Source: Aquimonas voraii (lineage in GTDB: Bacteria > Pseudomonadota > Gammaproteobacteria > Xanthomonadales > Xanthomonadaceae). From it: 64,000 nt of DNA. Positions 1-6,065 of this stretch are shown here, in pieces; position 1 is the first letter of the stretch; each line of letters starts with the position of its first letter. The stretch is taken from contig NZ_FNAG01000002.1 in the NCBI RefSeq assembly GCF_900101825.1, positions 1 to 64,000 on the forward strand. Reading direction: 5' to 3'. The notes below the pieces were generated by a model. The model was not told where the DNA came from. It searched no databases and was given only the letters and a program-made list of their open reading frames with translations. A program made the position numbers and the translations under genes.

Positions 1-356
1 GCGATGCGCGCGCCGGTCTTGACCAGTAGCGCATCCATCACCGCAACCGGCGCGAGCTCGGCCATGCGCTCGGCGTTTCGCATGCGCAGGCCTTCGGCGC
101 GGGCGCGCAACAGGCCCAGGCGCTCGCGCTGCAGCTCGGGCGAGGATTGGCGCGCGCGGTCTGCGGCGGTGTCGCGGAGACGCTGCGTGTAGGCGCGGAC
201 CCACTCGCGCAGCGATGCGCCCTCGACCAGCACACCAGCAGCGATCAGACGCGAGACGTGCTGCTGCGACAGGCCGACCAGCAGGCCGAAGTCGGCTTGA
301 CTCGGCGCCGGCTTGCCCAGGTCGAAGCCAGCCAGGAAGCCAGAACTCAGGGGCAT
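1..356 (-). CDS. Phage terminase small subunit, Nu1-like (partial, runs off left edge)
   Basis: This gene reads leftwards from an ATG at 354-356 and stays open for 118 codons to the edge of the window, so its C-terminus is not visible. The start follows a strong ribosome-binding site, GAGGGGGG four bases before ATG. An N-terminal helix-turn-helix is visible at about residues 19-45 (SQADFGLLVGLSQQHVSRLI), followed by a charged helical stretch ending in RMRNAERMAELAPVAVM. This is the layout of Nu1-type small terminases, which recognise the packaging site and deliver DNA to the large terminase. It is the last visible gene of the element inserted at tRNA-Phe. A terminase small subunit in such a short int-alpA-primase layout is typical of phage satellites, but a prophage would also have one. 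Confidence 0.75.
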   Translation of the reverse strand, partial: MPLSSGFLAGFDLGKPAPSQADFGLLVGLSQQHVSRLIAAGVLVEGASLREWVRAYTQRLRDTAADRARQSSPELQRERLGLLRARAEGLRMRNAERMAELAPVAVMDALLVKTGARI

Positions 357-623
357 ACAACCCCCCTCGCACCGCACACAGCCCCATGCCGCACCCCATG
401 ACTAGCGCGGGAATGCGGCCATGCAACCCGCACTTGATCGACCGCCGGGAGGACCCGGACCGCCCGGGGCATAACCCCGAGCACAGGCCATAACCGGTTG
501 CCGAGCCCTAGCCCTAGTCGCGTTTTGCGGCCATGCAACCCGCATCCAGGCGCGCAGGGGAGGACCCACCCCCGGCCACCGGCCGAACCGGTCGCCGGAT
601 TTCCGGAGACGCCGGATTTGTTC
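357..623. repeat. Intergenic repeat region with 19-bp direct repeats upstream of terminase gene
   Basis: The 267-base gap between the helicase and terminase genes holds two perfect copies of tgcggccatgcaacccgca at 414-432 and 526-544, 112 bases apart. Each is followed by a GGGAGGACCC-like block (about 448 and 558). A shorter direct repeat, cgccggattt, lies at 593-602 and 610-619. No ORF of coding quality was seen. Spaced repeats next to a small terminase gene could be terminase recognition (cos or pac) sites; next to a replicative helicase they could instead be origin iterons. The sequence does not decide between these. Confidence 0.6.
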
Positions 624-2297
624 TCAGCCCCTGACGGTTTCATATCCGGATGCTTTCCCATGCGTAGCTGAATCCATCTCCGGTAATCCGGTTCTCCGGC
701 GATCCTCGACAACCCACAGGCCGGTGTTGCCGATTACGTCGCGACGGTGACGAACCACCAGCGAGCCGAACATGCGATCGCGCTGGCGCCCGAGGTACTT
801 GCCAAGCCGGCGCGGGTTGATACCGCCCGGGCCGCCCGCGACGGCATCCAGCGCTCCGCGCAGCGGGCCATCGCGCCCAGCTTCAACGATGGCGTCTGCG
901 ACGCTTACAGCTCGATCACTGAAGGCGCGGCGCCACTCGGTCAGCACCTCGACTGCCGCTTCGCGCTCCGGGTCATCACGGTGCAGGGTGTCCAGGCAGG
1001 CGCACGGGTCGGCCATTCCCAGCGCTATCAGCGGGTCACGCACGCGCCGCGACCAATCCTCGAAGCTGCCGAGCGGCGGGCGCTGCGCCTCGACGGTGCG
1101 GCCCCACATCGCAATGGTCAGTAGCGCACGGACCAGCGGCACCCGCTCTTGGCGCGCACGCGCCACCGGGCAGAACTTGAACTCCCGCGTCTCCGGACGC
1201 TCGATACCCGGGTCGATATGGCAGACCAGGAAGCGCCGGCTCAGGTCGCCTTGGATCACCAGGTTATTGCCGGTGGCGAGGAACAGTGAGGCCACCTGCA
1301 CGCGGGGCATCGAGCTGGAGCCCAGCACGCGGATGGCGACCTCGCTCTGCGTCATGGCGCTATTGAGCGCAGCCGAGCGCAGCGGCGTCTCCAGGTTGTC
1401 CAGGCACACCACCGGGTCACCGGCCAGCAGGGTGGCGCCGAGCCGCTTCTCGGCCTCTTCTTCCTTCGGTGGCCAGGACACCGCAGCCGAAGGCCGGCCC
1501 GTCGCCAGCACCGCGCACACGTCCGCCAGCTTGGACTTGCCCGAGCCGCGCACGGGCGCGGTGAAGCCGAAACCCGGGCACGTGCTCAGGCTCGGCCGCA
1601 GCACCGCCGACAGCATCGCCGCGATCGCCGTTGCTTCGTCGCTCGGGTCGACGAACACGAACCCACCCAGCAGCGCGCGCAGCGGCAGCAGCGCCGCCTC
1701 GGCTTCGGACTTCGTTGGCTTCGTGGGGATCGCGCCCCAATCTTCCGAGCTGCACACCACCGCGCGGCTGCGCGCGTCGTAGCCCTCCCGAACAATCGTG
1801 CCATCCGGGTGCACCACGGGCACGCATGCCACCGCGCGAACGGGCTGCACCTGCCAGCGCCCGACGCGCCCGAGGTACACGGCCGGCAGCTGGGGCGGAC
1901 AGCCCACCGGGCGAATCTCCGTCGTGCCGTCTTTCAGCTTGAAGGCAGCGACGAATCTGGCCGAAGCCTCGAACGCTTCCAGCAGCATCGGCCCCGAGGC
2001 CGGCACCAGCGAAGGTAGGGAATCATCCCGCCGAACGCCTGCCGTCTTGGCGCCGAAGGTCAGGCGCACCAGCACATCGCCGCGCGCATAGAACGGCAGG
2101 CCCTTCGCCAGCAGTGCGACCTCGGCGGCGTCGGCCGATTCGTGGATCCGCCCCTTGCGGACAATGACCTCGGGCCTTGTGTCGGCGCCTGGCGGATCAC
2201 CCGCCCGGCCGCGCTTCTTGGCGACTTGCGCCAGGCGCTCAAGATCTCGAGCGCTGGCCTTGTCCACCGCGGTGAGGTAGCCACCCGCGCCGGTCAT
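624..2297 (-). CDS. Phage/satellite D5-type superfamily 3 helicase (primase-helicase C-terminal half)
   Basis: A 557-residue protein with a Walker A motif, PVRGSGKSKL, at about residues 248-257 and a Walker B-like segment, DPVVCLDN, at about 294-301, followed by a sensor-like LFLATGNN. This is the arrangement of phage and satellite replicative helicases related to the C-terminal half of P4 alpha. The ATG at 2297 is chosen because its ATGA overlaps the stop of the zinc-finger gene upstream; the open frame extends further 5' but would overlap that gene extensively. The N-terminal 200 residues show no recognisable catalytic primase motif. Its likely role is unwinding the element's origin during autonomous replication. 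Confidence 0.75.
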   Translation of the reverse strand: MTGAGGYLTAVDKASARDLERLAQVAKKRGRAGDPPGADTRPEVIVRKGRIHESADAAEVALLAKGLPFYARGDVLVRLTFGAKTAGVRRDDSLPSLVPASGPMLLEAFEASARFVAAFKLKDGTTEIRPVGCPPQLPAVYLGRVGRWQVQPVRAVACVPVVHPDGTIVREGYDARSRAVVCSSEDWGAIPTKPTKSEAEAALLPLRALLGGFVFVDPSDEATAIAAMLSAVLRPSLSTCPGFGFTAPVRGSGKSKLADVCAVLATGRPSAAVSWPPKEEEAEKRLGATLLAGDPVVCLDNLETPLRSAALNSAMTQSEVAIRVLGSSSMPRVQVASLFLATGNNLVIQGDLSRRFLVCHIDPGIERPETREFKFCPVARARQERVPLVRALLTIAMWGRTVEAQRPPLGSFEDWSRRVRDPLIALGMADPCACLDTLHRDDPEREAAVEVLTEWRRAFSDRAVSVADAIVEAGRDGPLRGALDAVAGGPGGINPRRLGKYLGRQRDRMFGSLVVRHRRDVIGNTGLWVVEDRRRTGLPEMDSATHGKASGYETVRG

Positions 2298-2758
2298 GTC
2301 AGCACCGCCCGCGCGCCTTCCACACGCTCGCAGGCCACGCGCAAGCGGGCCAGGTCTTCGGCACTCAGCGGCTCGCCTGCGGCCAGCGAGCCCGCGGCGA
2401 TCTCGATCACCAGGGCCTCGCGCCCCAGCACGCCCAAGGCCGCAGCCCACGCCGCCTCACGCGAGGCACGCCAGGCCGCGCGGCGCTCTTCCGGCGTGTG
2501 GGCGCGGCGCAGGTTCGGCGGGAACAGGTCGCGCCGCTGCAAGCCGAGGGCGGCCACAACGTCATCCACCGAACAGCCCGCGAAGCAGTGCAGCAGCACG
2601 CGGCCATCGTCACCGGCTGCGATCGACAGCGAGGCCGCGCGGTCCTCATGCGCAGGGCAGCGGCACAGGTAGCCGCGACCGGACCGCCGAGGGCGATCCA
2701 GACGCGACAACACCAGTTCCAGCGGCCCCGCTTCAACCTCCCGCAGAGCCGAGGGCAT
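2294..2758 (-). CDS. CHC2-type zinc-finger primase-like protein
   Basis: A 154-residue protein. Residues about 29-62 carry a zinc-ribbon of the DnaG/P4 alpha type: LCRCPAHEDRAASLSI followed by LHCFAGCSVDDVVAALGL, giving paired Cys/His ligands. No TOPRIM catalytic domain follows; the rest is an alanine/arginine-rich helical region. The start overlaps the preceding stop (TGATG) and the end overlaps the helicase start (ATGA), so it is translationally coupled to both. The primase zinc module and the helicase are therefore separate polypeptides here. It probably helps the helicase recognise the origin template. Confidence 0.75.
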   Translation of the reverse strand: MPSALREVEAGPLELVLSRLDRPRRSGRGYLCRCPAHEDRAASLSIAAGDDGRVLLHCFAGCSVDDVVAALGLQRRDLFPPNLRRAHTPEERRAAWRASREAAWAAALGVLGREALVIEIAAGSLAAGEPLSAEDLARLRVACERVEGARAVLT

Positions 2759-3021
2759 CAGACACCCCCGGCGATGGCGCGAGGCGGTGGCGGCGGCTCA
2801 TTGCGCACGATGCGTTCAAGTTCAGCCGTGATGTTCTCAGGGAACCCCAGCATCGCAATCTGCAGCTTGATGTTCGCAGCCTGCTGCACGGCCATCGCCT
2901 CAGCCATTGCATAGCCAAGCCACGCCTGCGAGCCGTTCAGGATCTGATCGGCGGCCTGCTGCAGGGAGTGCACGGAGCCACGAAAGAACCGCCACTCCCG
3001 ATTCTCTTCCGGCCGCCTCAT
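2758..3021 (-). CDS. Small element-encoded protein of unknown function (87 aa)
   Basis: I do not recognise this family. The product is a soluble, mostly helical protein with an alanine/glutamine-rich centre (YAMAEAMAVQQAANIKLQIA) and a run of five prolines near the C-terminus. It starts with ATGA overlapping the stop of the gene before it and ends in TGATG coupled to the zinc-finger gene, so it belongs to the replication operon. It has the size and position of the accessory ORFs found between alpA and the primase in P4-like elements. Confidence 0.6.
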   Translation of the reverse strand: MRRPEENREWRFFRGSVHSLQQAADQILNGSQAWLGYAMAEAMAVQQAANIKLQIAMLGFPENITAELERIVRNEPPPPPRAIAGGV

Positions 3022-3272
3022 GAATCACCCCGCGTACCGATCACGTTCCGCATATCTTCTTGCAGCCCTGCGATCCCGTTGGTCACCAGATCACGCAACG
3101 TCGCCGAGACCTCGTGCACCACCTCGAATCCGACGCTATCGGGATCATTCCGGACCCGCTCCAGGGGGCGGGCAGCCTCAAGAAGCTGCGAAAGCATCAG
3201 CTGTGCGCGGACTCGAGCAAACTCGCGCGCGACTTTCGGAGACAGGGGGAAGCGCTTGATTTCGTCAGCCAC
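3018..3272 (-). CDS. Small element-encoded protein of unknown function (84 aa)
   Basis: The start is a GTG at 3270-3272 preceded by a near-perfect Shine-Dalgarno, AGGAGG, six bases upstream, which decides it. The product is a charged helical protein without membrane segments or a recognised domain. Its 5' end overlaps the stop of the 52-residue gene by eight bases and its 3' end overlaps the next start by four bases, so all are read from one transcript. Confidence 0.6.
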   Translation of the reverse strand: MADEIKRFPLSPKVAREFARVRAQLMLSQLLEAARPLERVRNDPDSVGFEVVHEVSATLRDLVTNGIAGLQEDMRNVIGTRGDS

Positions 3273-3423
3273 GGCGGACCTCCTGAGCGCTAGCGCGCTC
3301 GAACTCGCGACCCTCGGGCGTGATGCGCACCGCGGGCAGCTCGCGGACGGTGCGCTCGGCGAATCCGCGCTTACTGGCGCGGGCCTCGCGGCGGGCGTTT
3401 CGCTTCGGCTTGCGGCGGCTCAC
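3265..3423 (-). CDS. Very small, highly basic protein (52 aa)
   Basis: A short gene with a GTG start at 3421-3423 overlapping the upstream stop as GTGA, ending at 3265-3267 within the start region of the next gene. The product begins MSRRKPKRNARREARASKRG and is strongly basic in its first 20 residues, becoming mixed-charge afterwards. It fills exactly the otherwise unexplained gap in a chain of overlapping genes, which is the main reason to believe it is real. Such a tail could bind nucleic acid, but no family is recognised. Confidence 0.55.
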   Translation of the reverse strand: MSRRKPKRNARREARASKRGFAERTVRELPAVRITPEGREFERASAQEVRRG

Positions 3424-3683
3424 GAGCCAACCACCACGCCCGCAGCGCGGGCCATCTCGCGGAGCTTCTTCAACGGTTCGGCAATGTCGCCGAGCGCGCG
3501 GTCCATGCTGTCCGCGCCGAGGCTCGCGAGGAAGAACGGGCGGCGGTGCTGCTCGCGCTGCGTCTCGCCCATCATCGCGCCGAACAGGGCCTCGGCCTCG
3601 GCGAGGCGATAGTCGACCATCTCCACAGCATCCACCAGGTCGCGCAGGTCTGAAACCGTCATGGTGATGGTGGCGGTATTCAT
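3420..3683 (-). CDS. Small element-encoded protein of unknown function (87 aa)
   Basis: Begins MNTATITMTVSDLRDLVDAV and continues as an acidic then mixed helical protein with no recognised domain. The ATG at 3683 is chosen because ATGA overlaps the stop of the upstream 59-residue gene. The frame remains open for a further 630 bases upstream, but that part crosses two other genes and has low-complexity composition, so it is rejected. It is coupled to the 52-residue gene downstream by a GTGA overlap. Confidence 0.6.
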   Translation of the reverse strand: MNTATITMTVSDLRDLVDAVEMVDYRLAEAEALFGAMMGETQREQHRRPFFLASLGADSMDRALGDIAEPLKKLREMARAAGVVVGS

Positions 3684-3859
3684 GCCGTCACCTCGGAGCG
3701 CAGGGCGGCGGCGATGGCGCGCAGTTCGGCGGCCAGGCTCTCGCTGTCGAAGATGGCGCGGCCCTCCAGGGCCATCGCTGCGTGCTGCAGCAGGCCGGGC
3801 CACTGTGGGCGGGGGACGTTGGTGCTCGCGGCCGTTGCGGCCGGGGTGCGGGTGTTCAT
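3680..3859 (-). CDS. Small element-encoded protein (59 aa), first gene after the leader
   Basis: Starts MNTRTPAATAASTNVPRPQW and ends with an alanine-rich amphipathic helix. The ATG at 3859 is preferred over longer options (the frame opens back to 4156) because proteins of this type in P4-like islands commonly start with an MNTRTP-like sequence right after a segment resembling WAPSQTESQA. That upstream segment may be non-coding leader. Function is unknown. Confidence 0.5.
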   Translation of the reverse strand: MNTRTPAATAASTNVPRPQWPGLLQHAAMALEGRAIFDSESLAAELRAIAAALRSEVTA

Positions 3860-4152
3860 AGCTTGGGACTCCGTCTGTGAGGGAGCCCACCACTGCGCTG
3901 TCAATCGCGAAGGTGGCGGACAGTACGCGGGTTGACAGACCGGCAGACGGACCGGCAGGGCTTGCGCCCTCCCACGCACTGCCCGCCATTGAAAGCTCGC
4001 GAGCACGCGCCACACCCTTTTCGCAGGCATGAAAAAAGCGCCGACCAACGGATGTGGGGCGCTTGTGCGCCGTCTGAAAACTGAGCGGCCTGTCAAAACC
4101 GCAGGCTGAGCATGCGACGGAACTCGCATGCACGTCAAGGCCCGCGCGCGCA
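3860..4152 (-). other. P4-like immunity/ash leader region upstream of the replication operon
   Basis: A 293-base stretch between alpA and the first small replication-operon gene. Read on the minus strand it can be translated without a stop (HPLVGAFFMPAKRVW, then WRAVRGRAQALPVRLPVCQP), and this resembles predicted ash-family products of P4-like islands. It contains a tandem accggcag repeat (3939-3946, 3951-3958), a small hairpin agggc-ttgc-gccct (3957-3970) and a perfect 8-bp inverted repeat gcatgcga/tcgcatgc (4110-4117, 4124-4131). In P4 the equivalent region encodes the CI immunity RNA that terminates transcription before the replication genes. An RNA-based switch is therefore the likeliest role; whether a protein is made is unclear. 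Confidence 0.4.
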
Positions 4153-4368
4153 TCACGCGGCCCTCGGCGCGCTGCGGCTGGCGGCGATGCGACCAGCTGC
4201 CCAGGCGTCAACCTCGGCAGCAACCCAGCGTGCGCAGTTGGGGCCGATGGATACCGGCTTGGGGAAGCCGTTGTCCTCGATCCAGCGGTAAACGGTTGAT
4301 CGACACACCCCAAGACGGCGCACTACGGCGCGAATGGGCAGGAACTGAACATCGGTATGGTCTTGCAT
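4153..4368 (-). CDS. AlpA/Vis-family DNA-binding regulator
   Basis: A 71-residue protein with an AlpA winged-helix: residues 8-30 (QFLPIRAVVRRLGVCRSTVY) form the helix-turn-helix and RWIEDNGFPKPVSIGPNCAR is the typical wing, followed by WVAAEVDAWAAGRIA. Proteins of this family act as excisionases and transcription switches (P4 Vis, E. coli AlpA). The ATG at 4368 is preceded by GAGGG. It lies between the integrase and the leader of the replication operon, the position of alpA in PICI and P4-type satellites, and probably controls excision and that operon's promoter. Confidence 0.88.
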   Translation of the reverse strand: MQDHTDVQFLPIRAVVRRLGVCRSTVYRWIEDNGFPKPVSIGPNCARWVAAEVDAWAAGRIAASRSAPRAA

Positions 4369-4637
4369 GCGTTTCCCTCGTCCGGCCTTGCTTTCGGAGG
4401 GGCACCGAAGGGTGCCCGCGAACAGCTGCGGACAACATGCAACACCAAGTGCGTCCCGGTCTCGGGGGAACGGGATACACCTGCAAGGCATTGATTTATC
4501 GGCAAATCGCAAATCTGCGTCGGCAGCCGCACCCCGAAAGCCCGCAATTCACAAGGCTTCCGGATTGCCTTAGAACTGCATGTGCCCGTCGCGCCCGGGG
4601 GAGGTCGCCCAACAGGGCAGGCTTTCGCGCGATGTGA
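4369..4637. promoter_or_regulatory. alpA upstream region with inverted repeat
   Basis: A 269-base gap between alpA and the integrase gene that must hold the alpA promoter. It contains a perfect 7-bp inverted repeat gggcacc-gaag-ggtgccc at 4400-4417, about 32 bases before the alpA start, a possible operator or 5'-UTR stem. The part from 4490 to 4570 is less GC-rich than its surroundings. No confident -35/-10 pair was identified. Confidence 0.35.
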
Positions 4638-5816
4638 TCAGCGCGCGCGAAGGGAGTCGAGGTAGTCCGCCCATGCCTGCATCATTCGGCGGCGTTCCGA
4701 TAGGTGCGTGGTCCGGTTGTAGCTGCGGCCCATCGCGTCGCGCACTTCGTGCGCCAATTGGTGCTCGATCAGGTGCGCCGGAAAGTGCAGTGCCTCATCC
4801 AACAGCGTGCGCGCGGTGGCCCGGAAGCCGTGCGCGCTCTGCCGGTCTCGATAGCCCAGCGTGGCGAGCGCCGCGGCCAATGTGTTCTCGCTCATCGGCC
4901 GATCCTTGCCCCGGTTCGCGGGGAAGGCGAGGGCGCCGCCTCCGGTCACCGCGTGCAGCTCGCGCAGGATCTCCACGGCCTGCCGCGACAGGGGCACCAG
5001 ATGGTCGTGGCGGGTTTTCATGCGCTCGGCGGGGATAGTCCACAGTGCGCCCTCAAGGTCGAACTCAGACCAGGGCGCTTGTCGAAGCTCACCAGGGCGG
5101 ACGAATACCAGCGGCTGCAGCCGAAGCGCGCAGGCGACCACGGCGCTACCCGGATACGCCCAGAGCGCCCGCAGCAGAGTGCCCAGCTGCGCCGGGTCGG
5201 TGATGGCGGGGAAGCTCTGCGGCTTGGGCGGGGTCAGGGCGCCCGCCAGATCGCGCGAGGGGTCGCGCTCGGCGAGGCCGCAGGCGATGGCGTAGCGGAA
5301 GACGCGGCCGGCCACGCTGCGGGCGCGCTTCGCCGTCTCCAGGGTGCCGGCCGCTTCGCTCTTGCGCAGGGCGGCCAGCAGTTCGGGCGGCTCGATCGCG
5401 CCCACGGGTCGGGCGCCGATGTGCGGGAACAGCTTGCGCTCAAGAACCCAGGTCACGGCCACGCGGGTGGACTCGGCCAGGCGCTGCCGCTGCAGCCAGT
5501 CGCGGCCGACGATCTCGAACGTTTGGCTGCCGGCGAACTCTGCGGCGTGGCGGGCGGCCTTGCGGACTTCGCCGGGGTCTTGCCCTTGCGCCAGTTGCGC
5601 GCGGGCTTCGTCGCGGCGCTCTCGGGCTTGCGCCAGTGAGACAGCGGGATATGCCCCCAGCGCAAGCCGCTTTTCCTTGCCCCCGAATCGGTACTTCAGC
5701 CGCCACAGCTTGCTGCCGGCCGGGGATAGCTCCAGGTAGAGCCCGCCGCCGTCGAACAGGCGTTGCGGCTTGTCTGCGGGCTTGGCCTTGCGGATCGCAG
5801 CATCGCTCAGGGGCAT
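4638..5816 (-). CDS. int: Tyrosine integrase of the P4/CP4 type
   Basis: A 392-residue site-specific recombinase. The N-terminal arm-binding domain (MPLSDAAIRKAKPADKPQRL, then DGGGLYLELSPAGSKLWRL) is the DUF4102 type found in tRNA-inserting islands. The C-terminal catalytic domain shows R240 (RPGELR), H329 and R332 (SAHGFRATART), H356 (QLAHEV) and the nucleophile Y366 (GRSYNR). The ATG at 5816 fits the family's usual start; the frame is open further upstream but runs through the tRNA. It lies 173 bases from the 3' end of tRNA-Phe and reads away from it, which marks that tRNA as the attachment site. Confidence 0.95.
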   Translation of the reverse strand: MPLSDAAIRKAKPADKPQRLFDGGGLYLELSPAGSKLWRLKYRFGGKEKRLALGAYPAVSLAQARERRDEARAQLAQGQDPGEVRKAARHAAEFAGSQTFEIVGRDWLQRQRLAESTRVAVTWVLERKLFPHIGARPVGAIEPPELLAALRKSEAAGTLETAKRARSVAGRVFRYAIACGLAERDPSRDLAGALTPPKPQSFPAITDPAQLGTLLRALWAYPGSAVVACALRLQPLVFVRPGELRQAPWSEFDLEGALWTIPAERMKTRHDHLVPLSRQAVEILRELHAVTGGGALAFPANRGKDRPMSENTLAAALATLGYRDRQSAHGFRATARTLLDEALHFPAHLIEHQLAHEVRDAMGRSYNRTTHLSERRRMMQAWADYLDSLRAR

Positions 5817-5950
5817 GGGGGCATCCTCGCGGCGGGTCGGGGGCACTGCCCCCAATGATGCCCCCTCATGCCCCAAGATTGGGTGCGACTCGATGCGACC
5901 GCCTTGGACGGTTGAACAGCCCGAAAGCGTTGGAAATGCTAGCTTTGGGC

Positions 5951-5981
5951 AAAAAAAACCCCGCTTTTGGCGGGGCTTTTT
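5951..5981 (-). terminator. Intrinsic terminator of tRNA-Phe
   Basis: On the minus strand the sequence GCCCCGC-CAAAA-GCGGGG is followed by eight T residues, a textbook rho-independent terminator beginning about nine bases after the tRNA CCA end. It separates the tRNA from the element's integrase. Confidence 0.9.
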
Positions 5982-5989
5982 CGGAAGTG

Positions 5990-6065
5990 TGGTGGCCAAG
6001 GACGGAATCGAACCGCCGACACGGGGATTTTCAATCCCCTGCTCTACCAACTGAGCTACTTGGCC
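5990..6065 (-). tRNA. tRNA-Phe (GAA), attachment site of the element
   Basis: A 76-base tRNA on the minus strand with encoded CCA. The acceptor stem GGCCAAG pairs with CTTGGCC, the D arm is GCTC..GAGC, the anticodon stem GGGGA/TCCCC encloses TTGAAAA (anticodon GAA), and the T arm GGCGG-TTCGATT-CCGTC is canonical. An integrated element starts right after its 3' end, so the 3' part is presumably the attL core; the gene itself is intact. Confidence 0.97.

Follow-up and report, generated by a model that had tools for sequence, protein, structure and literature searches.

Two elements integrated in the genome of Aquimonas voraii, designated A and B, are very probably cos-type phage satellites with a layout like that of the Gram-negative phage-inducible chromosomal islands (PICIs), each encoding a shell of its own and taking TerL, the portal and the tail from a helper phage. 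Most of element A lies in the stretch of DNA that was analysed, the first 64 kb of contig C19 (NZ_FNAG01000002.1, positions 1 to 64,000; hereafter the window), in a genome of 4.43 Mb assembled in 40 contigs. A sequence-only reading of the first 6 kb had proposed a phage satellite inserted at tRNA-Phe. That identity is supported, and window 1-6004 makes up most of the integrated element.

The element does not end at window position 1. Position 1 is a contig end within terS, and the rest of the element is on contig C14 (locus L011; loci L012 and L013 are on contigs C11 and C20, respectively). The sequence of window 1-432 terminates four contigs, C19, C20, C14 and C11, with 100% identity. Such a pattern is expected when two elements have one exact repeat in common that defeats the assembler, and these 432 bp caused the break. 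The copies of the attachment (att) repeats are distributed over C19 and C14 and over C20 and C11, and therefore C19 joins C14 to give element A and C20 joins C11 to give element B. The following features define the ends of element A and its packaging and head genes.

Window 5990-6065, minus strand: tRNA-Phe (GAA), the attachment gene (ARAGORN; Rfam RF00005, 71.5 bits).
Window 5990-6004, minus strand: attL core, CGTCCTTGGCCACCA, with its partner attR copy at L011:3766-3780 (contig C14).
Window 1-432, minus strand: segment common to elements A and B, 100% identity.
Window 1-356, minus strand: terS, a Nu1-type terminase small subunit, first 118/177 codons; cut by the contig end and completed at L011:77-610.
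L011:603-1013: orphan gene X, between terS and the fusion gene.
L011:973-3018: ClpP-protease/major-capsid fusion (NF045540, phrog_133).
L011:3282-3551: small exported-looking protein, with a counterpart at L012:3686-3955 in element B.

Element A is ∼9.34 kb (window 1-6004 plus L011:433-3780) and is bounded by direct repeats of the tRNA-Phe 3' end, a 15-bp exact match sitting in a 57-bp match of 84%. The second copy, which the sequence-only reading had proposed to seek to the left, is thus the attR copy on C14. Element B is ∼10.0 kb and is integrated at tRNA-Leu; the tRNA-Leu(CAA) 3' end is repeated at L012 ∼4164-4181 and the intact gene is at L013:6270-6356. The terS region is shared with A over the 432 bp. 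In a genome of the same genus (G022) one contig carries both the flank of tRNA-Phe on the window side and the flank on C14, ∼9 kb apart, and this synteny confirms both the C19-C14 pairing and the tRNA-Phe attachment site. Between the two flanks this sister species carries an unrelated 8.7-kb integrative element (L142:1131-9881), which duplicates the tRNA end as a direct repeat of its own and has its integrase at the far end; tRNA-Phe is a hotspot of integration.

Sequence is identical between A and B in the 5' part of terS and in the second of the cos-like repeats described below, while the neighbouring genes are 15–35% different, which points to a recent exchange between the two satellites within one cell.

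Gene order is the same in A and B: integrase, AlpA, C4 RNA, small open reading frames (ORFs), CHC2 protein, helicase, a non-coding region with a duplicated motif, terS, X, the protease/capsid fusion, the small exported-looking protein and attR. Integrase through capsid form a single transcription direction, the window parts all being on the minus strand. Every part that the sequence-only reading had listed is present, namely the integrase at tRNA-Phe, alpA, a P4-like leader (the C4 RNA), small coupled genes, the CHC2 protein and terS; the fusion gene and X lie outside the 6 kb on which it was based. Completing terS from L011 improved its match to phrog_57 from 4e-12 to 2.1e-18. The two capsid fusions matched NF045540 with E-values of 1.9e-128 (under the curated cut-off) and 1.6e-143 (over it), and phrog_133 with 2e-140 and 2e-150.

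Genes for TerL, portal, gpW, tail, lysis or a protein repressor were not found between the repeats in A or B, and there is no room for TerL, portal, HNH or head-tail connector genes between terS, X and capsid. The full head, tail and lysis set of a complete prophage is absent from A. The left flank therefore does not hold the set of tail, lysis and repressor genes that would have marked a prophage, and the statement that no repressor or lysis gene is visible can be extended to the whole interval between the repeats. The P4 genes for Sid, Psu, Delta and the alpha replicase were not found among the window proteins (Pfam and PHROG) or the left-flank proteins (PHROGs and NCBIfam).

X occupies the place of the TerL-gpW-portal genes of phages, which suggests that it is an adaptor or a size factor. 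Its AlphaFold model is all-helical and confident (pLDDT 95.4, pTM 0.78), and Foldseek gave no match to it at E<=0.001 among PDB and viral models. Likewise, X had no tblastn match in 50,697 phages. As a marker in 369 genomes of the host class, X recovered G000 and two matches only (G331 and G490), taken as chance or as other elements since no capsid gene is within reach. Several satellites have a further small conserved ORF in the interval from terS to X (L012:640-944, L050:10370-10801, L051:4818-5129 and L098:6528-6833), which was not found in A. The closing small protein is nearly identical in A and B, begins with a signal-peptide-like start (MRRALILSLALLLPALASA) and is possibly a host-benefit gene.

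Two putative packaging sites precede terS in each element. In A they are as follows.

Window 505-577, minus strand: cos-like site 1, core GGGTCCTCCC at 558-567 and downstream TGCGGGTTGCATGGCCGCA at 526-544 (21.6 bits, E=1.5e-5).
Window 394-466, minus strand: cos-like site 2, core at 447-456 and downstream repeat at 414-432 (21.6 bits, E=1.5e-5).

In both A and B each of the two core copies is followed by 15–17 bases, a GCGGG motif and GGCCGC. In the non-redundant set, GGGTCCT[CT]CC occurs 20 times against 3.4 expected under a first-order Markov model. Each phage locus has the pattern at a single site and each satellite at one or two, on the strand that is packaged; the exception is a reverse-strand match in prophage L053, which is a chance match. 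A model was then made from 12 aligned phage sites, including that of the lambda-like prophage of the A. voraii genome itself (C20:947,814). The model is built from sequence only and contains no satellite sites. Applied to the window and L013, it identified two sites per element (E=1e-6 to 1.5e-5), the next best match having E=0.054; the two in the window are its only sites there, and both are just upstream of terS. One site each was identified in five other satellite loci, G008 (2e-9), G422 (1.3e-8), L096 (4e-7), L103 (2e-7) and G239 (5e-6). Phages mEp460 and LESphi3 and prophages L053, L055 and L056 have no good match. We call these putative sites cos-like. A search with the terS region of L118 among named phages was unsuccessful, so that no named phage whose ends have been mapped can be linked to them. 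The proposal of the sequence-only reading that the element diverts a helper's packaging gains strength from these presumptive sites common to satellites and phages.

Relatives of the capsid fusion were drawn from the host family, the host class, GTDB genomes and IMG/VR. A profile search of genome contigs with a two-sequence capsid alignment gave no match, and the same search with a six-sequence alignment gave three loci. Loci with a sufficiently long context were sorted into satellites, in which X stands immediately before the fusion and TerL and portal are both lacking, and phages, in which TerL and/or portal adjoin the fusion and X is absent. The satellite layout was found in A, B, G008 (Lysobacter sp. 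CFH 32150), G239, G211, G422, L096 (a Rhodobacteraceae metagenome-assembled genome) and the IMG/VR contigs L098, L101 and L103. TerL and portal models were silent in the satellite loci tested with them, and the X proteins of satellites can be aligned across their N-terminal half. Phage loci were assigned by BLAST (L053-L059 and L089) or by profile (L099-L123, of which L101 and L103 are satellites and L110 is too short to tell). TerL but no portal was detected in L104 and L105, where the capsid fusion comes straight after TerS and TerL across a gap of only 350 bp (L104:2061-7108), a further unusual order of head genes. In the variant G560 (L094) the capsid lacks a protease and terS is present.

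A tree of 37 capsid domains places the 11 satellites in a single clade with support of 99/98, requiring one change of state. The ORFs of A and B are intact and their genes are under purifying selection, with dN/dS between A and B (Nei-Gojobori) of 0.22 for the helicase, 0.26 for the CHC2 protein, 0.34 for the integrase and 0.37 for the capsid. The metagenomic contig L098 (IMGVR_UViG_3300028430_000815; 10492 bp) has a 141-bp terminal overlap and so is a closed circle of ∼10.35 kb, an apparent excised or packaged form outside a chromosome.

Several satellites differ in what accompanies the capsid. In the G211 fusion (L052:7163-9022) the capsid half is kept and the ClpP-like half is swapped for another N-terminal domain, which was read by eye from its sequence as an S78-like protease. 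A tape-measure gene follows the fusion in G008 (L050:5041-7428, 795 aa; phrog_2335, 2.4e-51), and tape-measure genes were read by eye in L101 (7392-9281, 629 aa) and in L098 across the contig ends. Tail length set by a satellite would be unusual. In G422 the fusion is followed by a neck/tail-completion protein (L088:7842-8543; phrog_27, 5e-20), and the same protein is at L103:8444-9145.

The right part of element A contains the integration, control and replication genes.

Window 4638-5816, minus strand: P4-type tyrosine integrase, 392 aa (PF13356, PF22022, PF00589; phrog_1, 2.2e-61).
Window 4153-4368, minus strand: AlpA-family regulator/excisionase, 71 aa (PF05930, 4.9e-14; phrog_66).
Window 3909-3993, minus strand: C4 antisense RNA (P4-type immunity RNA) in the early-operon leader (Rfam RF01695).
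Window 3680-3859, minus strand: small ORF, 59 aa, no Pfam or PHROG match.
Window 3420-3683, minus strand: small ORF, 87 aa, overlapping the preceding one; 91% amino acid identity in element B.
Window 3265-3423, minus strand: small ORF, 52 aa.
Window 3018-3272, minus strand: small ORF, 84 aa.
Window 2758-3021, minus strand: small ORF, 87 aa.
Window 2294-2758, minus strand: CHC2 zinc-finger primase-like protein, 154 aa (phrog_6088, DNA primase, 1.1e-14).
Window 624-2297, minus strand: D5/SF3-like helicase, 557 aa (phrog_29234, 2.6e-95; phrog_19930, 3.2e-17).

The integrase domains were identified with E-values of 1.2e-29 (Arm-DNA-bind_3), 3.7e-28 (Phage_int_M) and 2.6e-14 (Phage_integrase). A tRNA-Ala predicted by ARAGORN within the integrase gene (window 4900-4974) had no support from Rfam and is likely a false positive. 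The five small ORFs overlap or abut and span 2758-3859. The CHC2 protein and the helicase make up a primase/replication module of the element's own, as judged by their PHROG matches. In Pfam the CHC2 protein had a weak Zn_ribbon_DnaG match (20.3 bits, under the 24.9 cut-off) and the helicase had no match at 0.1. The sequence-only reading had named the latter an SF3 helicase. Its identity as a helicase holds, given the phage families matched and a GxGKS motif that is invariant across 5/5 aligned relatives; the SF3 label, lacking a Pfam match, is plausible but not shown.

The C4 RNA of A scores 66.9 bits (gathering score 45, E=8.4e-11) and that of B 73.7 bits; the a1/b1 target model was found in B as well (51 bits). 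C4 RNA is further present in G211, G239 and L101. In B a C4 segment can pair with the leader far better than with shuffled leaders (2/500 equally good). In P4 a C4-type RNA silences the early operon. By analogy, the C4 RNA is probably the substitute for a protein repressor in A; no such repressor would be needed because C4 would keep the early operon off, as in P4 immunity. A simple sigma-70 promoter scan of window 3600-6000 gave no match.

These parts suggest how the satellites may work. The integrase would insert the element at the tRNA 3' end, and AlpA and the C4 antisense RNA would govern the early operon, C4 holding it off. Upon helper entry or induction the CHC2 and helicase proteins would replicate the element. 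The satellite's own TerS would then bind the duplicated cos region just upstream of its gene and recruit the helper's GpA-type TerL. The protease-scaffold-capsid fusion, being self-contained, would build or co-build a shell, probably small, around the helper portal, and the tail would come from the helper. X would probably adapt TerS or the capsid to the helper TerL or portal, or set shell size. A candidate helper, not proven, is the lambda-like prophage of the same genome (C20 ∼937-980 kb), which has a GpA-type TerL (2.7e-104), a portal, a separate capsid, tail genes and the same cos-like site as A and B. Short exact words common to the elements and this prophage are chance-like matches only.

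A number of observations weigh against the satellite interpretation or its details. The cos core was first spotted in A and B, and 10/12 phage sites in the model were picked by the 10-bp core, so that for these ten the independent parts are the position, the strand and the second half at fixed spacing. A looser pattern that includes the second half served to pick the remaining two, L058 and the A. voraii prophage. G211 (E=0.06) and L098 (E=0.03) match the model weakly, at the expected place, and L101 has no match to it. In A the pairing of C4 with the leader is weak (32/500 shuffles equally good) and the a1/b1 target model was not found. Finally, the terS junction is inferred across the contig break from overlap, att repeats and synteny and was not sequenced through.

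The order terS, ClpP-protease and capsid is that of a lambdoid head module such as that of mEp460, minus TerL, gpW and portal. A and B could be decayed prophages, now inert, from which deletions have removed the genes for TerL, portal, tail and lysis. This explanation is largely refuted and we consider it highly improbable: many hosts and attachment sites that are unrelated to one another show this reduction, with X filling the gap, the satellite capsids group as a single, deeply branched clade, the ORFs are intact and under purifying selection, the cos-like sites are retained, and L098 is circular. A less easily dismissed alternative is that the capsid protein poisons helper capsid assembly while the satellite is packaged through cos in ordinary helper capsids. 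The capsid homologue of SaPIbov5, Ccm, forms no shells alone and mixes with the helper capsid protein (PMC8569155), and EcCICFT073, despite its capsid gene, is packaged in capsids of full size (PMC6092414). Neither Ccm nor the EcCICFT073 capsid has a protease, however, whereas in A and B a fused protease is kept with the capsid gene, as in phages, and in G211 it is swapped rather than lost. Interference of this kind is therefore quite unlikely.

A and B might instead be ordinary, already described Gram-negative PICIs of the PmCI172 type. PmCI172 has a capsid homologue and makes small capsids carried on helper tails, and some Gram-negative PICIs have terS (PMC6092414). The helper of PmCI172 is a Mu-like myophage, though, and the sole sequence comparator, the EcCICFT073 capsid, is unrelated to the A/B fusion by BLAST (E=14); PmCI172 itself is set apart by description, not by sequence. 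No description of X, C4 control or a phage-shared cos in PICIs was found in the open-licence papers searched. We regard this explanation as unlikely, if the best of the three.

Known satellites either borrow or resize the helper shell (PICI, P4 and PLE) or make a whole head with motor and portal (the capsid-forming PICIs, cf-PICI). The A/B family is an unusual halfway form in which the shell is made and the motor and portal are not. A helper portal must then seed a foreign shell, a question of cross-species assembly that is directly testable. The family joins P4-type RNA immunity to a PICI-like body and extends such satellites to Xanthomonadaceae and other environmental bacteria. X plus the capsid fusion in the absence of TerL and portal gives a search rule for more members, and the cos-like signature may pair satellites with helpers. 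We tentatively go further and suggest, with somewhat more doubt than belief, that this is a separate widespread satellite family with the signature TerS, X and protease/capsid fusion, combining its own shell with a foreign portal and motor through X, a phage-shared cos and antisense-RNA silencing, some members adding their own short tape-measure or neck protein. X would then be a new kind of adaptor between satellite head and helper motor or portal.

Among described systems, the Gram-negative PICIs (PmCI172 and EcCICFT073; Fillol-Salom 2018, PMC6092414) resemble A and B in size (∼9–10 kb), in carrying an int that acts at a fixed att site, AlpA, genes for primase/replication, terS and/or cos and a homologue of capsid proteins, in being transcribed in a single direction, and in lacking TerL, portal, tail and lysis genes. 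EcCICFT073 differs in its short lambda-like capsid gene with a decoration protein; it has two cos sites and no TerS homologue (PMC6092414). In contrast, A and B have a protease-scaffold-capsid fusion of a separate lineage, X, their own terS, a duplicated cos-like site and C4 RNA. The cf-PICIs, as summarised in PMC10690885, likewise encode a capsid protein, a head protease and a terminase small subunit of their own, and A and B would need helper tails as they do. They further encode TerL, HNH, a portal and head-tail connectors, and their mean size is 14 kb. Lacking all four of these, A and B fall outside the cf-PICI definition and would need the helper motor and portal as well.

SaPIbov5 is likewise a cos-type satellite, and for a capsid homologue acting together with the helper portal its Ccm is the closest functional counterpart. 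Unlike the A/B fusion, Ccm has no protease and forms only pentamers in mixed shells, and SaPIbov5 has no AlpA or C4 and a Gram-positive host (PMC8569155). The lambdoid phages mEp460, cdtI and LESphi3 have the same fused head gene family (∼31–34% identity) with a Nu1-type terS upstream, but TerL, gpW and portal stand between terS and the fusion and a full tail is present. P4 and P4-like satellites share the P4-type integrase, AlpA and the C4 antisense immunity RNA in the leader. They differ in having Sid, Psu, Delta and the alpha replicase; A and B encode a capsid rather than resizing that of the helper.

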